A stretch of DNA of 10,105 nucleotides from an uncultured Mycoplasmatota bacterium (lineage in GTDB: Bacteria > Bacillota_I > Bacilli_A > RF39 > UBA660): positions 1 through 10,105 of the forward strand of contig CAMMBO010000031.1 in NCBI GenBank assembly GCA_946494435.1. The letters run 5' to 3'. Shown here one piece after another: positions 2,093 through 10,105 of the stretch. Numbering within the stretch: the stretch's first letter is position 1; every line of letters starts with the position of its first letter. The notes under the pieces are model-generated. The model made no database searches. It saw nothing but the letters and a program-made list of their open reading frames with translations, and had not been told where the DNA came from. The translations under genes were made by a program, and so were the position numbers.

Positions 2093-3250
2093 ATGACTGA
2101 GTTAATGCAAATATTAGGTATATTTTTAGAAGGATTAATCTCCTTTTTTTCACCTTGTGTTATTCCTTTAATACCTTTATATATGGGCTACCTTGCTACT
2201 AATGCAAAAGAGATAGATAAAGATGGCAATGTTACTTATAAAAAGAAAGTAGTTCTAATCTATACCTTATTCTTTATCTTAGGAATATCTATGTCTTTCT
2301 TTATTTTAGGACTATCTTTTACAGGACTTGGTCTATTCTTTAAAGACAATAGAAAAATATTCTTAGAAGTAGGGGGCATCTTAATAGTAATCTTAGGACT
2401 ATTCCAGTTAGGTATATTAAAAGTAGATTTTCTAAATAAAGAAAAGAAATTAAAGATTAATTTTAATCCCAATAAAATGACTAAGAAAACAGCTTTCCTA
2501 ATGGGCTTTCTATTTTCTTTCGCTTGGACTCCTTGTGTAGGACCAGCCTTATCATCAACCCTAATCATGGCATCTACTGCAAGTACCGCTTTAATAGGAA
2601 ACCTTTTCGTTTTAGTTTATGCCTTAGGTTTTTTACTACCTTTTATAATATTAGGTCTATTTACTACAAAAGTTTTAAATATAATTAAAAGAAAACAAAA
2701 TATCTTAAATTATGTTGTTAAATTAGGAGCCTTAATTATTATTTTTATGGGAATCTTTGTATCTTATACTGGTTTTACTATGGAAAGCGTTAAAGATAAA
2801 GAGGCAGTAACTAGTACTGGTAAAGTAGAACTAGCAACTCCTATTAACTTTACTCTAAAAGACCAAAATGGTAATACTCATACTTTAGATGACTATATAG
2901 GTAAAACCATCATCTTACATTTCTATGCTATAGACTGTTTCGCTTGTTTAGATGAACTACCTAATATAGAGAAGTTATATAACGATTATAATCAAAATAA
3001 AGATGATGTTATTATTTTAGGAATCGCTAATACATCACGTAATCCTAAAAAAGATATAAAGAAATTCTTAACTAAAAATAATTATACCTTTACATCATTA
3101 AATGCTAGTAATAAATTATTTAATAAATACTATGTAACAACCTATCCCAATACTTATATAATAAACTCTAATGGTAATATTGCCTTTACATCTTTTGGCA
3201 GTATGACATATGATACTTTAAAAGAAGAAATAGAAAAAGTAAGAAAATAG
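2093..3250 (+). CDS. CcdA-TlpA fusion: thiol-disulfide transporter with thioredoxin-like domain
   Basis: Predicted to carry electrons from cytoplasmic thioredoxin through the membrane to an extracellular thioredoxin-like domain that reduces disulfides in exported proteins. Residues 1-230 form a six-helix CcdA/DsbD-beta-like domain. Its two redox cysteines sit in the conserved places, SPCVIPLIP (C22) and WTPCVGPALS (C148). After a short linker, residues about 248-385 form an AhpC/TSA-TlpA-type thioredoxin fold. The pair is DCFAC (C282, C285), and the cis-proline is P352 in TTYPNTYII. In most TlpA proteins this motif reads WCxxC; here the residue before the first cysteine is Asp. CcdA and TlpA are often separate neighbouring genes, so the single 385-residue chain is a natural fusion seen in some Firmicutes. 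AGGAG at 2079-2083 supports the start. Possible clients are the cysteine-containing exported proteins encoded later in the window, which is inference. Confidence 0.88.
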   Translation: MTELMQILGIFLEGLISFFSPCVIPLIPLYMGYLATNAKEIDKDGNVTYKKKVVLIYTLFFILGISMSFFILGLSFTGLGLFFKDNRKIFLEVGGILIVILGLFQLGILKVDFLNKEKKLKINFNPNKMTKKTAFLMGFLFSFAWTPCVGPALSSTLIMASTASTALIGNLFVLVYALGFLLPFIILGLFTTKVLNIIKRKQNILNYVVKLGALIIIFMGIFVSYTGFTMESVKDKEAVTSTGKVELATPINFTLKDQNGNTHTLDDYIGKTIILHFYAIDCFACLDELPNIEKLYNDYNQNKDDVIILGIANTSRNPKKDIKKFLTKNNYTFTSLNASNKLFNKYYVTTYPNTYIINSNGNIAFTSFGSMTYDTLKEEIEKVRK

Positions 3251-3302
3251 ACTCTTTAAAAAAAGTATATTTTCCTATATACTTATTATAGAGGGATAAG
3301 TA

Positions 3303-4196
3303 ATGAATAGTAGAATTGAATTAAATAAAGATAAACAAAAAGATATAGATAGAGAAAAACAGACAGAAAAAGTAAAAAAGATAGTTAAGAGAATAGTAAT
3401 ATCTCTTATTATAATCTTTTTACTTGTCTTTTTTACATTTTTTTACATTACTAATATTGGCACAACATCTCTAATAGTTAATGAAGAAGCGATTGTTAAC
3501 TCTAAACTGCCAGAGTCTTTTAGTGGACTTAAAGTTATTCAGTTTGGAGACTTACATTATAGTAATTATGACTTATTAAAAGAGGTTGTTAATGCCATTA
3601 CCAAAAGAAACCCTGATTTAATTTTATTTACAGGAGACTTATTAGGAAATGAAGATTTAACTCCTAAAAATAGAAAAAAACTCGTTAAAGAGTTAAAAAG
3701 GCTAAACTCTACCTTAGGTAAATATGCCGTATTAGGGGAGTCTGATAATGATGATGCCATATCTATTTTAGTAGATTGTGGCTTTAAGGTATTAGATGAT
3801 AGTAATGAACTTATCTATAACGAATCTAATGAACCTATTATGTTAGTAGGACTAAATACTAATAATGATTCTATTAATTACGATAAGGCTTTTACTAATT
3901 ATAATGATACTACTTATACTATAACAATATTTCATAAACCAGATTATATAGATGAGTTTGTAGAAGTATATCCTATTGATTTAGCATTAGCAGGGCATTC
4001 TCATTTAGGAGAGATTAGAATACCTTACTTACTTAATCTAGCTTCTAAAGATCATGCTTCTAAATATATAAATTCATACTATAAAATTAATAATACAGAA
4101 TTCTATATAACAAGTGGAATAGGAACAGATACTTATGATGTTAGAATTAATGCAAGACCATCTATTAACTTTTTTAGACTTAGGAAAACAACTTAG
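3303..4196 (+). CDS. Membrane-anchored calcineurin-like metallophosphoesterase (YkuE/YaeI-like)
   Basis: Likely hydrolyses a phosphoester at the outer face of the membrane; YaeI/YkuE relatives act on envelope or lipid-linked substrates, but the substrate here is unknown. The 297-residue protein has a lysine-rich cytoplasmic start (1-31), one transmembrane segment (about 32-50) and then the phosphoesterase domain. Metal-site motifs seen: GDLH (D83, H85), TGDLLG (G111-D112), FHKPD (H211) and GHSHLGE (H232, H234). The motif expected as GNH(D/E) reads GESD (145-148), so the usual Asn and His are both absent. This is odd for an active di-metal enzyme, although the other ligands remain. GAGGGAT at 3291-3297 is the likely ribosome binding site, 5 nt before ATG. 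The gene's 3' end overlaps the convergent carboxypeptidase gene by 17 nt. It may be cotranscribed with the upstream fusion gene, 52 nt away. Confidence 0.82.
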   Translation: MNSRIELNKDKQKDIDREKQTEKVKKIVKRIVISLIIIFLLVFFTFFYITNIGTTSLIVNEEAIVNSKLPESFSGLKVIQFGDLHYSNYDLLKEVVNAITKRNPDLILFTGDLLGNEDLTPKNRKKLVKELKRLNSTLGKYAVLGESDNDDAISILVDCGFKVLDDSNELIYNESNEPIMLVGLNTNNDSINYDKAFTNYNDTTYTITIFHKPDYIDEFVEVYPIDLALAGHSHLGEIRIPYLLNLASKDHASKYINSYYKINNTEFYITSGIGTDTYDVRINARPSINFFRLRKTT

Positions 4197-5229
4197 TAAA
4201 GAAGTTTTCTTTTTTCTTTGTCTCTTTTATATAAAGGGGTATTTTCTTTAAAGTCTTATTATTGAGAGTAATATTAATATTACCAACTTTACCACTTTTT
4301 AATGAGTCATCGATACTAGCAAGGACTTTAACATTATCTTTTTCTTTTTCTGTTAAAGGATAAGTAAAAGATTTATTTACATAGTACTTATTATCATCTA
4401 TAACGAGGTCAAAATCATTTTTATCAACAATATTATAGTTACTATAATTATCAAAAGCATATTCTGCCAATCTTTCATGATTATTATACTCATCATTATC
4501 ATCTAAAGTAACAATAGTTATGTTTAAATCATTCTTTTTATGAGTAGTGACAAGTGTTTTACCAGCACTAGGAGTATAACCATTTTTACCACCAGTACAG
4601 TATTTATAATCTCCTAATAGTTTCATTCTATTATACCAAAGATAACTCTTATTAAGAGTCTTTACTCGGTATTCTTCAGTACCAATTATTTTTCTATAAG
4701 TCTTATTTTTATAAGCATATCTTGATAATTTTGCCATATCTCTTGCCGTAGAGTAGTTCTTAGTCTCTTCATCAAGACCATGAGGATTACTAAAAGTAGT
4801 ATTAGTCATACCAATCTCTTTAGCTTTTTTATTCATCATTTTAACAAAGTCTTCTTCACTTCCTGCTACCGCTTTTGCAATTACAACTGATGCATCATTT
4901 CCACTTCTAAGCATAAGGCCATAGAGTAAATCAATTAACTTCATCTTTTCATTTAACTCTAAATAAATACTAGTTCCATACATCTTAAGTATTTCTTCTC
5001 CTGCTTTAATCTCTTTATCTAAATCTCCTTCTTCTATAGCGATAATACAAGTCATTATCTTAGTAATTGAAGCGATTAATCTTACCTCATCAGCATTATT
5101 TTCATATAAGACACGACCACTGTTTAAGTCTACTATAATACTACTTCTAGCAGTGTCAAAAGTATCTTCTTTACAAAAAACATTTAAGGGTACTAAAAAT
5201 AATAACAACATAACTAATACTTTCTTCAT
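4180..5229 (-). CDS. D-alanyl-D-alanine carboxypeptidase (S11 family, DacA/DacF-like)
   Basis: A low-molecular-weight penicillin-binding protein that removes the terminal D-Ala of peptidoglycan stem peptides outside the membrane. The 349-residue protein starts with a signal peptide (1-19, ending LNVFC-KED; the cysteine lacks a lipobox). Next come SITK (54-57, with nucleophile S54 and K57), SGN (109-111) and, in place of the usual KTG, KNG (215-217) in the context TGGKNGYTPSAG. The core ends near residue 250. A C-terminal beta domain of the PBP5-associated kind follows, and the protein ends in a lysine-rich segment (IKETKKKENFFTKLFS) that may be the remnant of an amphipathic membrane anchor. 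On the minus strand AGGTGA lies 7 nt before ATG, supporting the start. Its end overlaps the convergent phosphoesterase gene by 17 nt. Confidence 0.92.
   Translation of the reverse strand: MKKVLVMLLLFLVPLNVFCKEDTFDTARSSIIVDLNSGRVLYENNADEVRLIASITKIMTCIIAIEEGDLDKEIKAGEEILKMYGTSIYLELNEKMKLIDLLYGLMLRSGNDASVVIAKAVAGSEEDFVKMMNKKAKEIGMTNTTFSNPHGLDEETKNYSTARDMAKLSRYAYKNKTYRKIIGTEEYRVKTLNKSYLWYNRMKLLGDYKYCTGGKNGYTPSAGKTLVTTHKKNDLNITIVTLDDNDEYNNHERLAEYAFDNYSNYNIVDKNDFDLVIDDNKYYVNKSFTYPLTEKEKDNVKVLASIDDSLKSGKVGNINITLNNKTLKKIPLYIKETKKKENFFTKLFS
4184..4215 (+). terminator. Probable terminator at the convergent gene ends
   Basis: GAAAA and CTT (4184-4188, 4192-4194, with a 3-nt bulge between them) pair with AAG and TTTTC (4202-4204, 4205-4209), followed by a T tract (4210-4215). 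It lies inside the 3' overlap of the two convergent genes, so plus-strand transcripts of the phosphoesterase gene would end within the tail of the minus-strand gene. The stem is imperfect, so the call is tentative. Confidence 0.4.
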
Positions 5230-5380
5230 CGTACTTCACCTAATAAAACTTATTCTAAAAAAATAAAAGTATAACTAATAATATTAACATATACAGTTTT
5301 AATTTTACACTATCATTAAAAATAACTCTTGTCTTTTTTGTGTATTTAATATATCCTAGAAATAGGAAGGAGGAAAAACA
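5230..5380. promoter_or_regulatory. Divergent intergenic region with promoters for both flanking genes
   Basis: These 151 AT-rich bases must hold the start signals for the minus-strand carboxypeptidase and the plus-strand lipoprotein. On the minus strand TATACT (5268-5273) is a fair -10 box about 40 nt before the start codon, without a clear -35. On the plus strand TTGTCT (5329-5334) and TATATC (5350-5355) are separated by only 15 nt, a weak promoter candidate. A strong AAGGAGG (5367-5373) precedes the lipoprotein ATG by 7 nt. I see no operator or riboswitch. Confidence 0.35.
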
Positions 5381-5833
5381 ATGAGAGGTGTAAAAATATT
5401 TGGAGTATTATTAATAGCAGTATTTTTTATTACTGGATGTGGTGGTGAAAAAACTTTAACTTGTACAAATACAGAAGAACAAAGTGGTATCAGTATGGAC
5501 CAAGAAGTAACTATGACCTTTAAAGATGATAAAGTTACAGATGTAAAAATGAGTATTAATAGTAAAGCCACTAGTAGTCTTATAAAAAATAATTGGGATA
5601 CATTCGCATCTACTATGGATAAACAATTTGAAGAAAAAAATGAAGATGGTATAAAACTAAGTAAAACTAATGATGCTGATAACCATTCCTATAAAGTAGA
5701 ACTTGATATTGATTTAGAAAAAGCAAGTGATGATGCTTTATCTGAATATGGTCTTTCTGGTATAACTAATAGTAAGGCTTCTTATGAAGAAACTAAGAAA
5801 GATGCTGAAGATTCTGGATTTACTTGTAAATAA
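5381..5833 (+). CDS. Small cell-surface lipoprotein, possibly DUF1307/YehR-like
   Basis: Function unknown. The 150-residue protein has a lipoprotein signal peptide (1-19) with lipobox ITGC and lipidated C20. It should therefore be anchored on the outer face of the membrane. The mature part is acidic and predicted to be rich in beta strands. It carries two further cysteines, C28 in LTCTN near its start and C149 in FTCK at its very end, which could be joined by a disulfide. The order lipid anchor, LTCT, then VTMTFKDDKVTDVKMS resembles the DUF1307/YehR group of small lipoproteins, by recall only. The perfect AAGGAGG site indicates strong translation. It is monocistronic, with a terminator starting at its stop codon. 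The extracellular cysteine pair makes it a plausible client of the CcdA-TlpA protein, which is inference. Confidence 0.75.
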   Translation: MRGVKIFGVLLIAVFFITGCGGEKTLTCTNTEEQSGISMDQEVTMTFKDDKVTDVKMSINSKATSSLIKNNWDTFASTMDKQFEEKNEDGIKLSKTNDADNHSYKVELDIDLEKASDDALSEYGLSGITNSKASYEETKKDAEDSGFTCK

Positions 5834-5861
5834 AGAAAAGACTTTCTCTTTTCTTTTTTTT
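5832..5861 (+). terminator. Rho-independent terminator after the lipoprotein gene
   Basis: Arms 5832-5841 and 5847-5856 are exact reverse complements (10 bp, purine-rich 5' arm) with loop CTTTC. An unbroken T run extends to 5861. It begins within the stop codon. Confidence 0.8.
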
Positions 5862-5862
5862 G

Positions 5863-5871
5863 TGCTATAGT
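5863..5871 (+). promoter_or_regulatory. Possible extended -10 promoter of the surface-protein operon
   Basis: TGC followed by TATAGT (5866-5871) is an extended -10 (TGnTATAAT-like) element. The -35 position (TTTCTC, 5843-5848) is poor and lies in the terminator stem. A start near 5878 would leave about 20 nt of leader including AGGAGG. If real, it drives the three genes from 5899 to 8425, including the DGR target. Confidence 0.35.
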
Positions 5872-5885
5872 AATGATATAAGAAT

Positions 5886-5891
5886 AGGAGG
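5886..5891 (+). promoter_or_regulatory. Ribosome binding site deciding the start at 5899
   Basis: AGGAGG at 5886-5891 lies 7 nt before ATG 5899. The frame is open upstream to a TTG at 5860, but that codon is inside the terminator's T tract and has no binding site, so the upstream 13 codons should not be counted. Confidence 0.75.
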
Positions 5892-5898
5892 AGTTAGT

Positions 5899-6504
5899 AT
5901 GACAAGAGGAAGTGCTAGAAAAGAAGTAATAAAGCATGAGGAGGTATCAAGTTGGGTATATATATTATTATTAACAGCAATTGCAATATTAGGTTGGGTA
6001 TTAGGTAAGTTTGATTTTAACATAGGCAAAGCTAGTTTGACTTTTGCAATATTTGCTTATCCTTTTAGATATTTTGTAGCAAATATTATAACTAAAAAAT
6101 ACGGATATAAAGAAACGATGAATGGAATTAGTTATTCTGCTTGTTTAATGTTACTTTTCATGATCGTAGCGTCTTTGCTTGGCCAAAGAGATATTGATTA
6201 TATACCTGTAACTGGTGAAGTTTTTGGATATTTAGTAAGTCAAATGATTAACTTAACTATCTATTATTACTTATATATGAATACAGAAGGTAATAAATTA
6301 CCTATACTAGCTACTTACATATTTTCTATGTTAGTAGATAATTTAATTAGTATGTTATTTATAAGTAGAATGACTATGGTTGATGCTTTCTGGAGAACAT
6401 ATTTTGTTACTATATTAATAGAGACAATTATATCTATTATTTTGATTAATTTTGATGATAAAAAAGTATTACCAGTTAGTAAAAAAAGAAAAAAAAGAAA
6501 ATGA
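5899..6504 (+). CDS. VUT/YhhQ-like multi-pass membrane protein
   Basis: Integral membrane protein of 201 residues with about six hydrophobic segments (near 19-37, 43-62, 78-97, 107-125, 131-150 and 163-183) and a very basic C-terminus (KKRKKRK) that should be cytoplasmic. FAYPFRYFVANIITKKYGYK and LVSQMINLTIYYYLY match the pattern of the VUT family (YhhQ type; queuosine-precursor transporters). In that family the first stretch usually reads close to DxxTExYG. Here Asp and Glu are replaced (ANIITKKYG), so the transport substrate may differ or be absent. The gene opens a tight operon: its TGA overlaps the next ATG by 4 nt, and the DGR target follows. The family call is moderate; a generic membrane protein is the alternative. 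Confidence 0.55.
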   Translation: MTRGSARKEVIKHEEVSSWVYILLLTAIAILGWVLGKFDFNIGKASLTFAIFAYPFRYFVANIITKKYGYKETMNGISYSACLMLLFMIVASLLGQRDIDYIPVTGEVFGYLVSQMINLTIYYYLYMNTEGNKLPILATYIFSMLVDNLISMLFISRMTMVDAFWRTYFVTILIETIISIILINFDDKKVLPVSKKRKKRK

Positions 6505-6893
6505 ATAGAAATTATTCTTTAGTTAAAATGCTAATAGTTGTTATTATATTACTAGTGCTAGTATTGTTAGTTATAATAAGTGCTAAGAGACTAATAATAT
6601 CTAGTAATTTAGAATATTATAACAGAAAAGAAAAATTAATGATAAAAGCTAGTAGAGAATATTTTTCTGTTTATAGTAACTATTTACCTAAAGAAGTAAA
6701 TGATAATACTAGAGTATTACTTAGTGCTTTAGTTTTAGAAGAATATATTGACATGATAAAAGATGTTAATGATAATGATTGTAATAAAACAAAGAGTTAT
6801 GTAGAAGTAGAGAAGACTAGTGATAATGAATATCTATATAAAGCACATTTAGTATGTGATAAAGCAAACTATGAAACTAAGGATGGGGAGTAA
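6501..6893 (+). CDS. Single-pass surface protein with pilin-like N-terminus
   Basis: Function not established. The 130-residue protein starts NYSLVKMLIVVIILLVLVLL, which has the layout of a type IV prepilin N-terminus (GFTLIE then a hydrophobic helix). It lacks the Gly before the cleavage site and the Glu at mature position 5 (Lys instead), so normal prepilin processing is doubtful. It is better seen as a membrane-anchored protein with one helix (about 8-27). A short coiled segment (36-60) leads to an extracellular module with two cysteines (C94, C119) in EEYIDMIKDVNDNDC and YKAHLVCDKANYET. By recall, similar two-cysteine modules occur in predicted surface proteins of gut Firmicutes. It starts within the stop of the upstream gene (ATGA) and ends 2 nt before the DGR target gene, so the three should be cotranslated. 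It may assist export or anchoring of the target, which is inference. Confidence 0.65.
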   Translation: MNRNYSLVKMLIVVIILLVLVLLVIISAKRLIISSNLEYYNRKEKLMIKASREYFSVYSNYLPKEVNDNTRVLLSALVLEEYIDMIKDVNDNDCNKTKSYVEVEKTSDNEYLYKAHLVCDKANYETKDGE

Positions 6894-6895
6894 GT

Positions 6896-8425
6896 ATGGA
6901 TAAGACAAGAAAAAAGTATATAGCATTAGTAATAGTAACAGTAGTAATAAGTATAATAGCTTTAGTGGGAGCAAGCTATGCTTTACTTACTATGACTATA
7001 GAAGGTGATAAAAAAGTCAGTTTAACAGCAGGAATATTAAAAGTTGATTTTGATGAAGGTGATAATATTAATCTGAATGAAATAGCACCTATGACAGATT
7101 CTCAAGGATTAAAGACAACTCCTTATACATTTACTGTTACTAATAATGGAAATATAAATGCTTATTATCATGTGTCACTTGAAGAAGATAGTAATAATAC
7201 ATTAGATAATTCTTATTTAAAGATGAGATTAACTAGTGATAATGGGTATGATAGTGGAGTAGTTAAAGTAAGTAGTTATGGAACTGGAGAATTTGATATA
7301 ACTAGTGAAGCGACGTTAGAGCCAAGTGATAAAGTAACTTATCAATTATGGATGTGGTTAGATAATAATGCAGATAACTCTGCTCAAGGAAAAGTATATC
7401 AAAGTAAGATAGTTGTTACTAGTTATGATAGGAAAAGTCCAGTTAATGCAGTACAATTAGTTAAGAGTAAAGCTAATGAAGAAAGTTTAGACTTTAATAG
7501 TGCAACAGAAAAACAACAAAAAGAAGTATGGATACATAGTCATCCTGCAACAGAACAAACAGAGGCTCTAACAGATTATAGATATATAGGAAGTAATCCT
7601 AATAATTATGTAACTTTTAATAATGAAACGTGGAGAATAATAGGAGTATTTAGTGTAGATGATGGAACAGGTAATGTAGAAGAAAGACTTAAATTAATAA
7701 GAGATGAATTTATTGGAAGTTATTCTTGGGATAATAAAGATACTAGCACAGGAGCAGAGAGTACTTATGGTAAAAATAATTGGACTGATGCAAGACTTAA
7801 TTACTTATTAAATCCTGGACATGAAAGTGAAAGTGCAGGTGGAAGCCTATACTGGAATAGTGGTAGTGGAACATGCTATTCAGGTACTCGTAATGGAACA
7901 AAAAATTGTGACTTTACAACAACAGGGTTAAAAGAAGAAGCAAGAGAGATGATAGGAGACACACTTTGGTATTTAGGCGGAGCATCAAGTTACCAAAGTG
8001 CAAGTGATGGACTAACAAGTCACTTTTATTCATATGAAAGAGGAACAACTGTATATAGTGGAAGAGATACATCATGGGTAGGAAAAGTGGGCTTAATGTA
8101 TCCAAGTGATTATGGATATGCGACAAGTGGAGGAAGTACAACAGATAGAAATGCATGCCTAAATAAAGAATTATATAATTGGGCTAGCAGTGATTTTAGT
8201 GATTGTAAGAATAATGATTGGATATTTAATTCATCAAATCAATGGACAATCACTCCCCGCGCCTCTGCTTCTAACAATGTGTTTTATCTGGAGAACGCAG
8301 GTTATGTTAGCAGCGATTTTACGGCCAATGCTCGTGGTGTCCGCCCAGTCGTCTTTCTAAAGTCTAGTATCAAAATTGTTGATGGTGATGGAAGTAGTAG
8401 TAATCCATATATATTGCAAAGTTAA
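6896..8425 (+). CDS. DGR target (variable) surface protein with TasA/camelysin-like N-terminus
   Basis: Predicted cell-surface binding protein whose ligand-binding tip is diversified by the adjacent retroelement. In its 509 residues: a hydrophobic helix ends in GASYAL (8-31), a signal resembling SipW-dependent TasA/camelysin precursors. Residues about 32-178 look like a TasA/camelysin beta domain (SLTAGILKVDF; YTFTVTNNGNINAYYHVSL). After a linker, residues about 226-490 show the signatures of DGR target domains with a C-type-lectin/formylglycine-enzyme-like fold (perhaps DUF6273-like): YVTFNNETWRIIGVF, YSWDN, WTDARLNYLLNPG, GLMYPSDYGYAT, NQWTITPR and GVRPVVFLKS. Four cysteines (C327, C338, C421, C437) could form two disulfides. 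The likely variable segment is residues 454-487, followed by a constant 20-residue tail (ending GSSSNPYILQS). GGGGAG (6885-6890) precedes ATG. The operon context and the downstream MutS-like, Avd and RT genes support the DGR role. Confidence 0.88.
   Translation: MDKTRKKYIALVIVTVVISIIALVGASYALLTMTIEGDKKVSLTAGILKVDFDEGDNINLNEIAPMTDSQGLKTTPYTFTVTNNGNINAYYHVSLEEDSNNTLDNSYLKMRLTSDNGYDSGVVKVSSYGTGEFDITSEATLEPSDKVTYQLWMWLDNNADNSAQGKVYQSKIVVTSYDRKSPVNAVQLVKSKANEESLDFNSATEKQQKEVWIHSHPATEQTEALTDYRYIGSNPNNYVTFNNETWRIIGVFSVDDGTGNVEERLKLIRDEFIGSYSWDNKDTSTGAESTYGKNNWTDARLNYLLNPGHESESAGGSLYWNSGSGTCYSGTRNGTKNCDFTTTGLKEEAREMIGDTLWYLGGASSYQSASDGLTSHFYSYERGTTVYSGRDTSWVGKVGLMYPSDYGYATSGGSTTDRNACLNKELYNWASSDFSDCKNNDWIFNSSNQWTITPRASASNNVFYLENAGYVSSDFTANARGVRPVVFLKSSIKIVDGDGSSSNPYILQS
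8243..8365 (+). repeat. Probable variable repeat (VR) of the DGR, with IMH-like 3' end
   Basis: The island 8255-8356 has 53 G or C among 102 bases by my count, against a strongly AT-rich background. It uses CGC, CGT, CTG and GTC codons where the rest of the gene prefers AGA, TTA and GTA. From 8258 to 8335, 21 of 26 codons end in C or T, as expected when AAC/AAT template codons are mutated at their adenines. The last part (8333-8356) is almost free of A and encodes the constant RGVRPVVF, fitting a GC-rich initiation-of-mutagenic-homing (IMH) end. The boundaries are estimates, because the template repeat is not in the window. Confidence 0.7.
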
Positions 8426-8441
8426 TAAAGAAGTAGTAAAA

Positions 8442-8482
8442 CACGGCCCCAAAAGGTGAAATCTTTTGGCCGTGCTTTTTTT
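8442..8482 (+). terminator. Strong hairpin terminator after the DGR target gene
   Basis: CACGGCC (8442-8448) pairs with GGCCGTG (8468-8474) and AAAAG (8451-8455) with CTTTT (8463-8467). A 2-nt CC bulge is on the 5' side and TGAAA is at the loop apex. Seven Ts follow (8476-8482). This is the most GC-rich stem in the window. It starts 17 nt after the stop codon. Besides ending transcription, it sits where DGRs can carry a hairpin/cruciform needed for target recognition downstream of the VR. Confidence 0.85.
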
Positions 8483-8643
8483 GCCTTTTTTCGTTATCTG
8501 TTGTTTCTATTCCTTTAACAGTAAAGTCAATAAGAATAAGTATATCTTTAAAATGTGAGAATGTATTATAACAACATGATAAAGAATTACTACTATAATT
8601 ATTTAATAATATTATATAATCTAGTTATAGGAGAGAAGTAACA
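8483..8643 (+). promoter_or_regulatory. Intergenic leader with probable promoter of the DGR machinery genes
   Basis: AT-rich, non-coding stretch between the target gene's terminator and the MutS-like gene. TATAAT occurs at 8594-8599 and again at 8615-8620, both usable as -10 boxes, with no convincing -35. The first gives a sensible leader, while the second would start transcription almost at the ribosome binding site AGGAG (8629-8633). I searched it by eye for a template repeat matching the GC-rich VR on both strands and found none. Confidence 0.35.
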
Positions 8644-9027
8644 ATGAAAAATAGTAGTAATAACTTTATAACTTTAAGAAAAATGGGTGGATTTTATCAA
8701 TGTTTTGATAATGATAGTTATATCTTATATTATCTGTTTAATTATAAAATAACTAATAAAAGATGTGGCTTTCCTCATAGTAGTTTGTCTAAAATAATTA
8801 ATAATTTAGAATCTAAAAAGATTAGTTATAAAATTATAGATGATAAAATAAAAGATAATACTAAAGACTTTAAGAAACTTAATAACTATAATCACTATTT
8901 AAAACTAGGTATAGATAAATATAATCTAGATACTAAAAAGAAATCTTTAGAAGATAAAATAAGAGAAATGCCTTTTACTAAAATAGAGAAACTTTATAAA
9001 ATGATAGAGGATTATGTTAATGAATGA
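8644..9027 (+). CDS. MutS-domain-I-like DGR accessory protein
   Basis: A 127-residue protein whose first two thirds resemble the mismatch-recognition domain I of MutS. LRKMGGFYQCFDNDSYILYY aligns with the MutS stretch (L/F)-RMGDFYELFxxDA. KRCGFPHSSLSKIINNLESK followed by KISYKIID aligns with MutS CGIPxHAxxxYxxxLxxxGYxVAI. There is no MutS core, clamp or ATPase domain, so it is a free-standing domain I followed by a charged helical tail (about 98-127). In MutS, the Phe of FxE stacks on the mispaired base and the Glu bonds to it; here F17-Y18-Q19 keeps Phe but has Gln for Glu. MutS-like proteins are a recognised class of DGR accessory genes. A role in handling mismatched cDNA:VR heteroduplex is inference. 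AGGAG (8629-8633) precedes ATG, and the 3' end overlaps avd by 8 nt. Confidence 0.8.
   Translation: MKNSSNNFITLRKMGGFYQCFDNDSYILYYLFNYKITNKRCGFPHSSLSKIINNLESKKISYKIIDDKIKDNTKDFKKLNNYNHYLKLGIDKYNLDTKKKSLEDKIREMPFTKIEKLYKMIEDYVNE
9007..9010 (+). promoter_or_regulatory. Ribosome binding site deciding the avd start at 9020
   Basis: GAGG at 9007-9010 lies 9 nt before ATG 9020 but only 3 nt before the in-frame ATG 9014. Spacing therefore favours the shorter protein MNERFKLVIK. The site is inside the upstream coding region, which points to translational coupling. Confidence 0.5.
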
Positions 9028-9361
9028 AAGATTTAAGTTAGTAATAAAGATGAAAAACTTTATCTTTTATTTAGATGATATCTTAATTAATTATCCTAAA
9101 AGAGAATATATTTTGAAAGATGCTATTATGAGAGATTCTCTTAAAATATTAGAACTTATTTATGAAGCGAATAGTAGTATAGATAGAAATAATTATTTAG
9201 ATAAGATATCATCTAAATTATCTATGTTAGATTTTTACTTTAAAAAAAGTTATAGAAATAAATATATTAGTAAAAAAGTATTTGATAAAGTTATATTTGA
9301 ACTTACTACTATTATGAAGATGTTATATGGTTGGATTAAGTATGATAGAAGTAAAGTTTGA
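9020..9361 (+). CDS. avd: Avd, accessory variability determinant of the DGR
   Basis: Avd is a small, basic four-helix-bundle protein that forms a pentameric barrel, binds the DGR reverse transcriptase and template RNA, and is required for mutagenic retrohoming in the Bordetella phage system. This 113-residue protein has the family pattern: FYLDDILINYPKREYILKDA (helix 1 end, with the hallmark YPK), then IMRDSLKILELIYEANSS, a helix KLSMLDFYFKKSYRNKYIS, and the final helix ending MKMLYGWIKYDR, where Avd proteins commonly end in GGWIK or similar. It resembles the bAvd/23S-rRNA-intervening-sequence family. It overlaps the MutS-like gene by 8 nt and the reverse transcriptase gene by 20 nt, so all three are one translational unit. 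An alternative start at ATG 9014 would add two residues. Confidence 0.88.
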   Translation: MNERFKLVIKMKNFIFYLDDILINYPKREYILKDAIMRDSLKILELIYEANSSIDRNNYLDKISSKLSMLDFYFKKSYRNKYISKKVFDKVIFELTTIMKMLYGWIKYDRSKV

Positions 9362-10105
9362 TGATGTTTTAAGAATTTATGAAAAAGAGATATGTAAAAA
9401 CACTAAAAATAAATATAAGATATATAAATTTGAAAAATATAAAATGATGAATATAAAGAAAGTATGTAATGATTTAGTTGATTTAACCTATAATGGAGGT
9501 ACTTATAATATCTTTTTAATTAAACATCCTAAAGAAAGAATTATTATGTCTTTAAATATTAAAGATAAACTTATTAATCATTATGTTACAAGATATTATT
9601 TAATACCTAAATTAGAATGTAAATTAGATGATAGAAATACTGCAACTAGAAAGGGTAAAGGAAGAGATTATGCTCTTAATTTAATTAAAAAATATATAGA
9701 GAAGATGAAAAAGTATGATAAGTTTTATATCTTAAAGCTAGATATATCTAAATACTTTTATTCAATAGATCATAATGTTTTAAAAAATATGTTAAAAGAA
9801 GATTTAGGTAATACTTTTGAATATAAATATATATGTAATATTATAGATAGTACTAATAGAAGTTATATTAATAAATCTATTAGTAAGATAAATTCTAAAT
9901 ATAATTTATCTTTACCATATTATCTTTGTGATAAAGGCCTACCTATAGGTAATATGACTAGTCAGTTTTTATCTATCTATTACTTAAATAGATTAGACCA
10001 TAAGATAATACATGACTATAAAATTAAGTACTTCGTAAGGTATATGGATGATTTTATATTAATTCATCAAGATAAAGAATACCTTAAAGAAGTAAAAGAA
10101 AAGAT
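9342..10105 (+). CDS. DGR reverse transcriptase (partial, cut by window end)
   Basis: Copies the template-repeat RNA into cDNA with errors at adenines, the source of VR diversity. The 254 residues visible from ATG 9342 contain: a KGKGRDYAL segment (104-112), the catalytic-motif A helix LDISKYFYSIDH (first Asp D133), the DGR-specific motif LPIGNMTSQF (200-209), where other reverse transcriptases have QGxxxSP, followed by YYLNRLDH, and YMDD (234-237, catalytic D236-D237). The catalytic residues of the palm visible here are intact, so the enzyme looks active. The thumb and C-terminus lie beyond 10105; the family is usually about 330-400 residues. It overlaps avd by 20 nt and has no good Shine-Dalgarno of its own, so translation probably depends on coupling. 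The DGR assignment rests on IGNMTSQ plus the neighbouring avd and target genes; group II intron and retron reverse transcriptases do not fit that motif. Confidence 0.95.
   Translation, partial: MIEVKFDDVLRIYEKEICKNTKNKYKIYKFEKYKMMNIKKVCNDLVDLTYNGGTYNIFLIKHPKERIIMSLNIKDKLINHYVTRYYLIPKLECKLDDRNTATRKGKGRDYALNLIKKYIEKMKKYDKFYILKLDISKYFYSIDHNVLKNMLKEDLGNTFEYKYICNIIDSTNRSYINKSISKINSKYNLSLPYYLCDKGLPIGNMTSQFLSIYYLNRLDHKIIHDYKIKYFVRYMDDFILIHQDKEYLKEVKEK

Follow-up and report, generated by a model that had tools for sequence, protein, structure and literature searches.

The diversity-generating retroelement (DGR) of Bordetella phage BPP-1 consists of mtd, avd, a template repeat (TR) and brt. Its hallmarks are a target with a C-terminal variable repeat (VR), the Avd protein, a reverse transcriptase (RT) and TR/VR differences that are specific to adenines. 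Here we analyze a 10,105-nucleotide stretch of DNA (contig CAMMBO010000031.1, hereafter the window) that carries an element which is very probably a DGR. It resembles that of BPP-1 in all of these respects and also, as seen in the relatives of the window, in having a TR that lies near the RT in the same orientation. Unlike the BPP-1 element it is chromosomal, its TR lies behind the RT in the nearest relatives, and it is accompanied by a gene for a MutS-domain-I-like protein, MSL, to which the relatives add a second one, MSL2.

In MutS, the Phe of the F-x-E motif enters the mismatch, and changes of Glu38 in E. coli MutS alter mismatch discrimination; this residue was reportedly the subject of a study by Lebbink in 2006. 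In the MSH6/MSH2 pair, one partner has the wedge and the other does not, and MSL and MSL2 resemble this arrangement. To our knowledge, how mismatch-rich cDNA enters the target unrepaired is an open step of mutagenic retrohoming.

MSL (PF01624) is named as a DGR accessory, after a 2018 survey, in PMC10053308, which also refers to another protein linked to DGRs; this protein has no Pfam family and could be MSL2. The window is like the DGRs with this accessory in that a small MutS_I-like protein is encoded beside the RT and Avd. It is unlike them, as they have been named, in that its clade has a second MutS-domain-I-like gene and its sister lineages have MSL fused to the RT. A second MutS-like DGR protein was not found in the available parts of the DGR literature searched (PMC10053308, PMC12875486, PMC8144416, PMC6642488, PMC8867640, PMC10907252); the 2018 survey in Nucleic Acids Research lay outside this search, and a prior description is possible. 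PMC12691664 has no text on MutS, only an author name.

Results

The locus and its template-dependent variation

The original prediction was an apparently complete DGR with its genes in order. The order stands, since target, MSL, Avd and RT follow one another on the + strand (Table 1), whereas the completeness does not. The contig stops inside the RT frame, of which 259 residues are present vs 360 in L002, so that about 100 are lacking, and the window has no TR on either strand: the best TR-like score is 12.4, against at least 30 in every counted pair, and the best 60-nt match to the VR elsewhere in the window is 33/60 on the same strand and 31/60 on the opposite one. The end of the RT, the TR and, judging by relatives, MSL2 would therefore lie past the contig end. 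On the pattern of L002 and L003, the TR would start no more than about 20 nt from the RT stop codon and MSL2 would follow that codon at about 250 nt.

An RT-based scan of the species genomes gave 77 related loci (loci are numbered L and genomes G), of which L001, L002, L003 and L004 have the nearest RTs. L002 is from Candidatus Onthousia excrementipullorum and is 98% identical to the window across 2,651 bp of its flank (2626-5276). The identity is 81% over 5315-7737 and 95% over 8036-10105, and thus the 5' part of the target and the genes preceding it are more diverged than the cassette. The host is a small AT-rich gut bacillus close to this species, and its DGR is chromosomal. No relative of the RT was found in viral contigs by a pattern scan with six patterns from one protein.

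Directly behind the RT stop codon, L001, L002, L003 and L072 each carry a repeat that is nearly identical to the VR. The VR core of the window differs from the L072 TR at 16/34 adenines and at 1/63 other bases (Fisher p = 3.7e-8), in a comparison, like those that follow, with the TR of a relative and not with the window's own. The corresponding values are 19/37 and 3/60 for the L003 TR, 18/33 and 7/64 for the L002 TR, and 14/29 and 20/68 (p 0.06) for the L001 TR, which is diverged in its 3' part. The window VR departs from the L072 TR by nine A>G, four A>T, three A>C and one C>G change. The 16 adenine changes fall on codon positions 1, 2 and 3 in 9, 6 and 1 cases, so that 15/16 are at positions 1-2, and the L072 template read in frame is an Asn-rich stretch. 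The original prediction would have been given up if there were no TR near the RT, or if the differences were not at adenines; in the relatives the TR is there and the differences are at adenines, which bears out its identification of the element.

The same pattern is seen more widely. An adenine-biased TR/VR pair was found in 44 of the 77 loci, with differences at 701/1399 adenines and 49/2775 other bases, a biased estimate of the ratio because the pair thresholds favor adenine bias; some counted pairs, e.g. that of L042, may be ordinary repeats. In the other 33 loci no pair passed the thresholds, for reasons that include early contig ends, a target on the other strand (L005) and pairs beyond the length limits. 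In L005 both target and TR are on the strand opposite to the RT, and 19/37 adenines and 1/73 other bases differ. Of the 44 loci, 32 have the TR before MSL and 9 have it behind the RT; it stands between the two genes in 2 and before the RT in 1.

A GC-rich segment had been predicted in the target, and the VR is indeed an outlier: a GC content of 0.526 is reached by only eight overlapping 97-nt stretches in the whole window (starts 8250-8257). The GC content is 0.53 in the VR, 0.40 in the L072 TR and 0.32 in the remainder of the target gene, and the high value in the VR fits the rewriting of adenines. At its 3' end the VR has a candidate initiation of mutagenic homing (IMH) sequence, whose copy in the TRs of L002, L003 and L072 has C instead of T (IMH*); the L001 TR is diverged there.

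The predicted Avd and RT were both recovered by profile searches. Avd barely passes the bAvd cut-off (40.2 vs 40 bits), PHROGs names it as the Avd of DGRs (1.2e-16), and its best NCBIfam match is DivGenRetAVD, under the curated cut-off (50.7 vs 80). The RT passes RVT_1 (45.5 vs 29.6 bits); its IGNMTSQ motif starts at residue 207 and its YMDD motif at residue 239, and an SQ ending of the former motif is a mark of DGR RTs. That the RT belongs to a different kind of system, for example defence or a group II intron, could be argued from PADLOC, which returns generic and defence RT matches (best 'RT', 6.5e-24), and from the best NCBIfam match, a group II RT far under its cut-off (55.6 vs 300). However, the presence of Avd and of a VR and TR with adenine bias speaks against it, as does the TR/VR result in the relatives, and we regard it as scarcely credible. 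Given that the target carries a VR at its 3' end, that near relatives have TRs behind the RT, that the differences center on adenines, and that Avd and an RT with IGNMTSQ and YMDD are present, we put the probability that the element is a DGR at about 0.93. From established DGR biology, the RT-Avd complex would copy TR RNA and make errors at adenines, and the resulting cDNA would then replace the VR. In this way the C-terminal domain of the target, probably a surface protein, would be rewritten.

The element may be active, as the original prediction had it. It could also by now be inactive in the window strain, which we consider rather unlikely. Among the four nearest relatives, L001 appears damaged in its TR end and MSL2, and L004/L072 by an insert in the RT; in addition, the L002 VR is closer to a foreign TR than to its own. 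However, the open reading frames (ORFs) of the window are open, the visible RT motifs are intact, and the window VR has only the one non-adenine difference from the L072 TR. The L002 VR shows 1/63 non-adenine differences from the L072 TR and 7/64 from its own. Likewise, the VR of L097, a second VR-bearing gene in the genome of L004 (G004), shows 2/67 from the L002 TR and 8/63 from the L072 TR of the same genome. The TRs were apparently exchanged or replaced after these VRs were last written.

MSL and its partner MSL2

The MutS-like gene of the original prediction is MSL, which passes the Pfam MutS_I cut-off (26.2 vs 20.6 bits); 38/45 MSLs match this family at E 0.1 or better. The window MSL has the motif F-Y-Q, in which the wedge Phe17 is kept and Gln19 replaces Glu. 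The wedge Phe is present in 67/67 MSLs (66 loci and the window). The third position of F-x-E is N in 39 of them, Q in 7, E in 4 and another residue in 17, and the full motif is not kept across the set. In the single-MSL loci of other lineages it is E in 2/12 (L166, L169). The cells' separate MutS keeps F-Y-E in four near genomes. The PDB structure matches include E. coli MutS entries with Glu38 changed.

On sequence evidence, MSL2 is a second small gene that accompanies the RT in the RT clade of the window. It was found in 66/77 loci with a profile built from 13 of those loci, and it has a profile match to MSL. Its sequence similarity to known families is weak, and Pfam MutS_I was found in 3/54 MSL2 proteins without reaching the cut-off (best E 0.032). 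The MSL2 model has a pLDDT (predicted local distance difference test) of 94.6 and 34/35 of its structure-search matches are MutS or MSH; MSL2 is thus predicted to have the MutS domain I fold. Via profile alignment, the column equivalent to the wedge Phe is K in 36/64 and F in 0/64.

It is improbable that MSL2 is a chance ORF or an unrelated neighbor and no real partner. Its weak similarity to known families would allow this, as would 3 of its 30 places in 146 genomes, which are not beside an RT match. However, the other 27/30 are at or beside one, and the gene is retained despite a changed position relative to the RT (57 behind, 7 before). The ratio of nonsynonymous to synonymous change (dN/dS) is 0.11-0.42, hence below 0.43, in 9/9 chosen pairs with 4-18 synonymous changes per pair, which points to purifying selection, and the model is MutS-like. 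ORF noise is rejected on dN/dS and position.

An RT tree of 91 rows places 62 of them, the window included, in a clade with support 100/100; the window's label in this tree, MSL plus MSL2, is assumed. MSL2 is detectable in 58 of the 61 other members, 53 by extraction plus L061, L139, L149, L150 and L151; among the five added rows, the MSL2 of G107 has one stop codon. It was not detected in L001, L009 and L071. The L009 contig begins at MSL, and its sister L027 carries MSL2 upstream; in L001, where no MSL2 was found, the TR 3' end is diverged. Outside the clade, 26 rows belong to the same order or to related Bacilli. Of these, 13 have one MSL (12 labelled and L060), 3 only an MSL2-like protein, 3 an RT::MSL fusion and 1 a broken fusion, and in 6 neither MSL nor MSL2 was found within the stretch fetched.

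The MSL profile matches four RTs with a C-terminal fusion (Table 1) at 9e-24 to 1e-13; these are the independent matches, as the fusion profile was built from the same four proteins. The fusion loci L158 (outside the tree) and L066 have TR/VR pairs that differ at 18/27 adenines and 0/78 other bases and at 15/33 and 0/80, respectively, and no pair was found at L159 and L160. Judged from sequence, MSL and MSL2 appear to have arisen in this clade when an RT-tied MutS domain I helper was split or duplicated.

The L002 genome also carries a second DGR, L163 (G002:C58:10000-14500), with an MSL2-like gene and its own TR and VR, which differ at 21/36 adenines and 0/62 other bases. A third RT match in this genome, at G002:C1, contains stops.

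Other features of the locus and its relatives

The target protein of the window, lectin-like in the original prediction, has no Pfam family match, and DUF6273 is matched by 4/25 of its relatives. Homologues adjoin the DGR in L001, L002 and L004, and another is in L078. A PDB sequence search for a C-type lectin fold of the variable domain gave no match. Matches to the target protein, counted as pieces and not as genes, number 70, 45, 37 and 32 in G001-G004, whose genome sizes are about 1.4-1.5 Mb. The family is a large set of surface-like proteins, and in many of them C-terminal domains are repeated. That a single TR writes this large family was rejected, as TR DNA finds the TR and only 0-2 other places per genome; the VR of G003 (L078) escaped this search, which is thus of limited sensitivity, and dispersed targets may exist.

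The gene immediately 5' of the target has a homologue, 56-69% identical, before the target in L001, L002, L004 and L078. The L002 homologue starts with a GFTLIELL segment, which we take from the motif to be prepilin-like; the window copy is without it. An extra 428-aa ORF (L002:2804-4090, ATPase-like by eye) faces window position ~5276-5315, where the 98%-identical flank gives way to the block of lower identity. A hairpin scan of 6300-8800 on both strands gave two terminator-like sites, against 0.4 (standard deviation 0.6) in shuffles. Rfam has zero matches in the window, L001, L002, L003 and L072.

Two kinds of insertion split DGR RTs in the relatives. A RIT-like element (L064:1881-5300, L065:1411-4862), which has inverted ends and three tyrosine recombinase genes in tandem, splits the RT at the same IGNMTSQ codon; L004 shows the same junction at its end, as do L072 and L076 at their starts. 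The ORFs of the element match Phage_integrase in 6/6 cases. The first recombinases of L064 and L065 share only 40% identity, which suggests an old preference of the element for this RT site. Group II introns identified by Rfam (L055:1646-3525, L068:8729-10591) split the RT at YMDD, and the RT matches of L055 and L068 end at residue 241 and restart at 243.

Table 1 Features of the window and RT fusions in related loci (positions are those of the window unless a locus is named)
Feature	Position	Strand	Basis
Neighbor gene, 130 aa, N-terminal hydrophobic segment, immediately 5' of target; not known to be part of the DGR	6501..6893	+	ORF
Target gene, 509 aa, with a hydrophobic segment at the N-terminus and a variable domain at the C-terminus (DUF6273-like by relatives)	6896..8425	+	ORF
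VR; core compared to TRs 8252-8348	8243..8361	+	Aligned to TRs of L001, L002, L003, L072
Candidate IMH at VR 3' end, GTCCGCCCAGTCG	8339..8351	+	VR/TR alignment; name by analogy with BPP-1
Terminator-like hairpin then T-run, between target and MSL	8449..8469	+	Hairpin scan
MSL, MutS-domain-I-like accessory, 127 aa	8644..9027	+	Pfam MutS_I 1e-5, above cut-off
Avd	9014 (or 9020)..9361	+	Pfam bAvd 5e-10; NCBIfam DivGenRetAVD 1.8e-13 (below cut-off); PHROG 3206
Reverse transcriptase, cut by contig end	9327..10105	+	Pfam RVT_1; visible part 92-96% identical to L001-L004 RTs
RT with C-terminal MutS-domain-I-like fusion, F-Y-R	L158:2196-3725		ORF
RT with C-terminal MutS-domain-I-like fusion, F-Y-K	L159:1538-3016	-	ORF
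RT with C-terminal MutS-domain-I-like fusion, F-Y-K	L160:1342-2871	-	ORF
RT with C-terminal MutS-domain-I-like fusion, F-Y-Y	L066:2349-3866		ORF

Discussion

MSL and MSL2 are like domain I of MutS and MSH proteins in the fold of the MSL2 model and in the Pfam family and wedge Phe of MSL. They are unlike these proteins in being without the ATPase, clamp and connector domains, and MSL differs further in the third motif position. We tentatively propose that MSL, with its Phe wedge, and MSL2, without one, may work jointly, either on the heteroduplex of cDNA and VR with its mismatches or on the complex of RT and cDNA. They could help integration or keep host MutS-MutL repair away, and the loss of Glu in MSL might loosen mismatch selectivity and uncouple binding from repair. 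Alternatively, MSL and MSL2 may have nothing to do with mismatches and belong to the RT-Avd-TR complex as structural or RNA-binding components, a reading with a real chance of being right, though somewhat short of even. The fusion of the MSL domain to the RT C-terminus in L158, L159, L160 and L066 places this domain in the RT complex, and the Glu of F-x-E is mostly lost. However, the wedge Phe is invariant in the MSLs, which a purely structural role would not need. Mismatch handling in retrohoming is our leading single proposal for MSL and MSL2, held tentatively, and a structural or RNA-binding role is about as likely.

A more specific form of the mismatch proposal, which we consider doubtful as it stands, is that the clade carries a split MutS-type mismatch module. 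MSL and MSL2 would form a two-part clamp like MSH6/MSH2, made for the mismatched cDNA/VR heteroduplex, and would protect the programmed mutations against mismatch repair by the cell, and the sister DGRs would do likewise with one MSL or an RT-fused MutS domain. The interest of these proteins lies in the repair-linked Glu that is mostly lost and in the RT fusions of the sister lineages. If the proposal is true, an RT-tied pair of mismatch domains would give the step at which unrepaired cDNA enters the target named, testable proteins.

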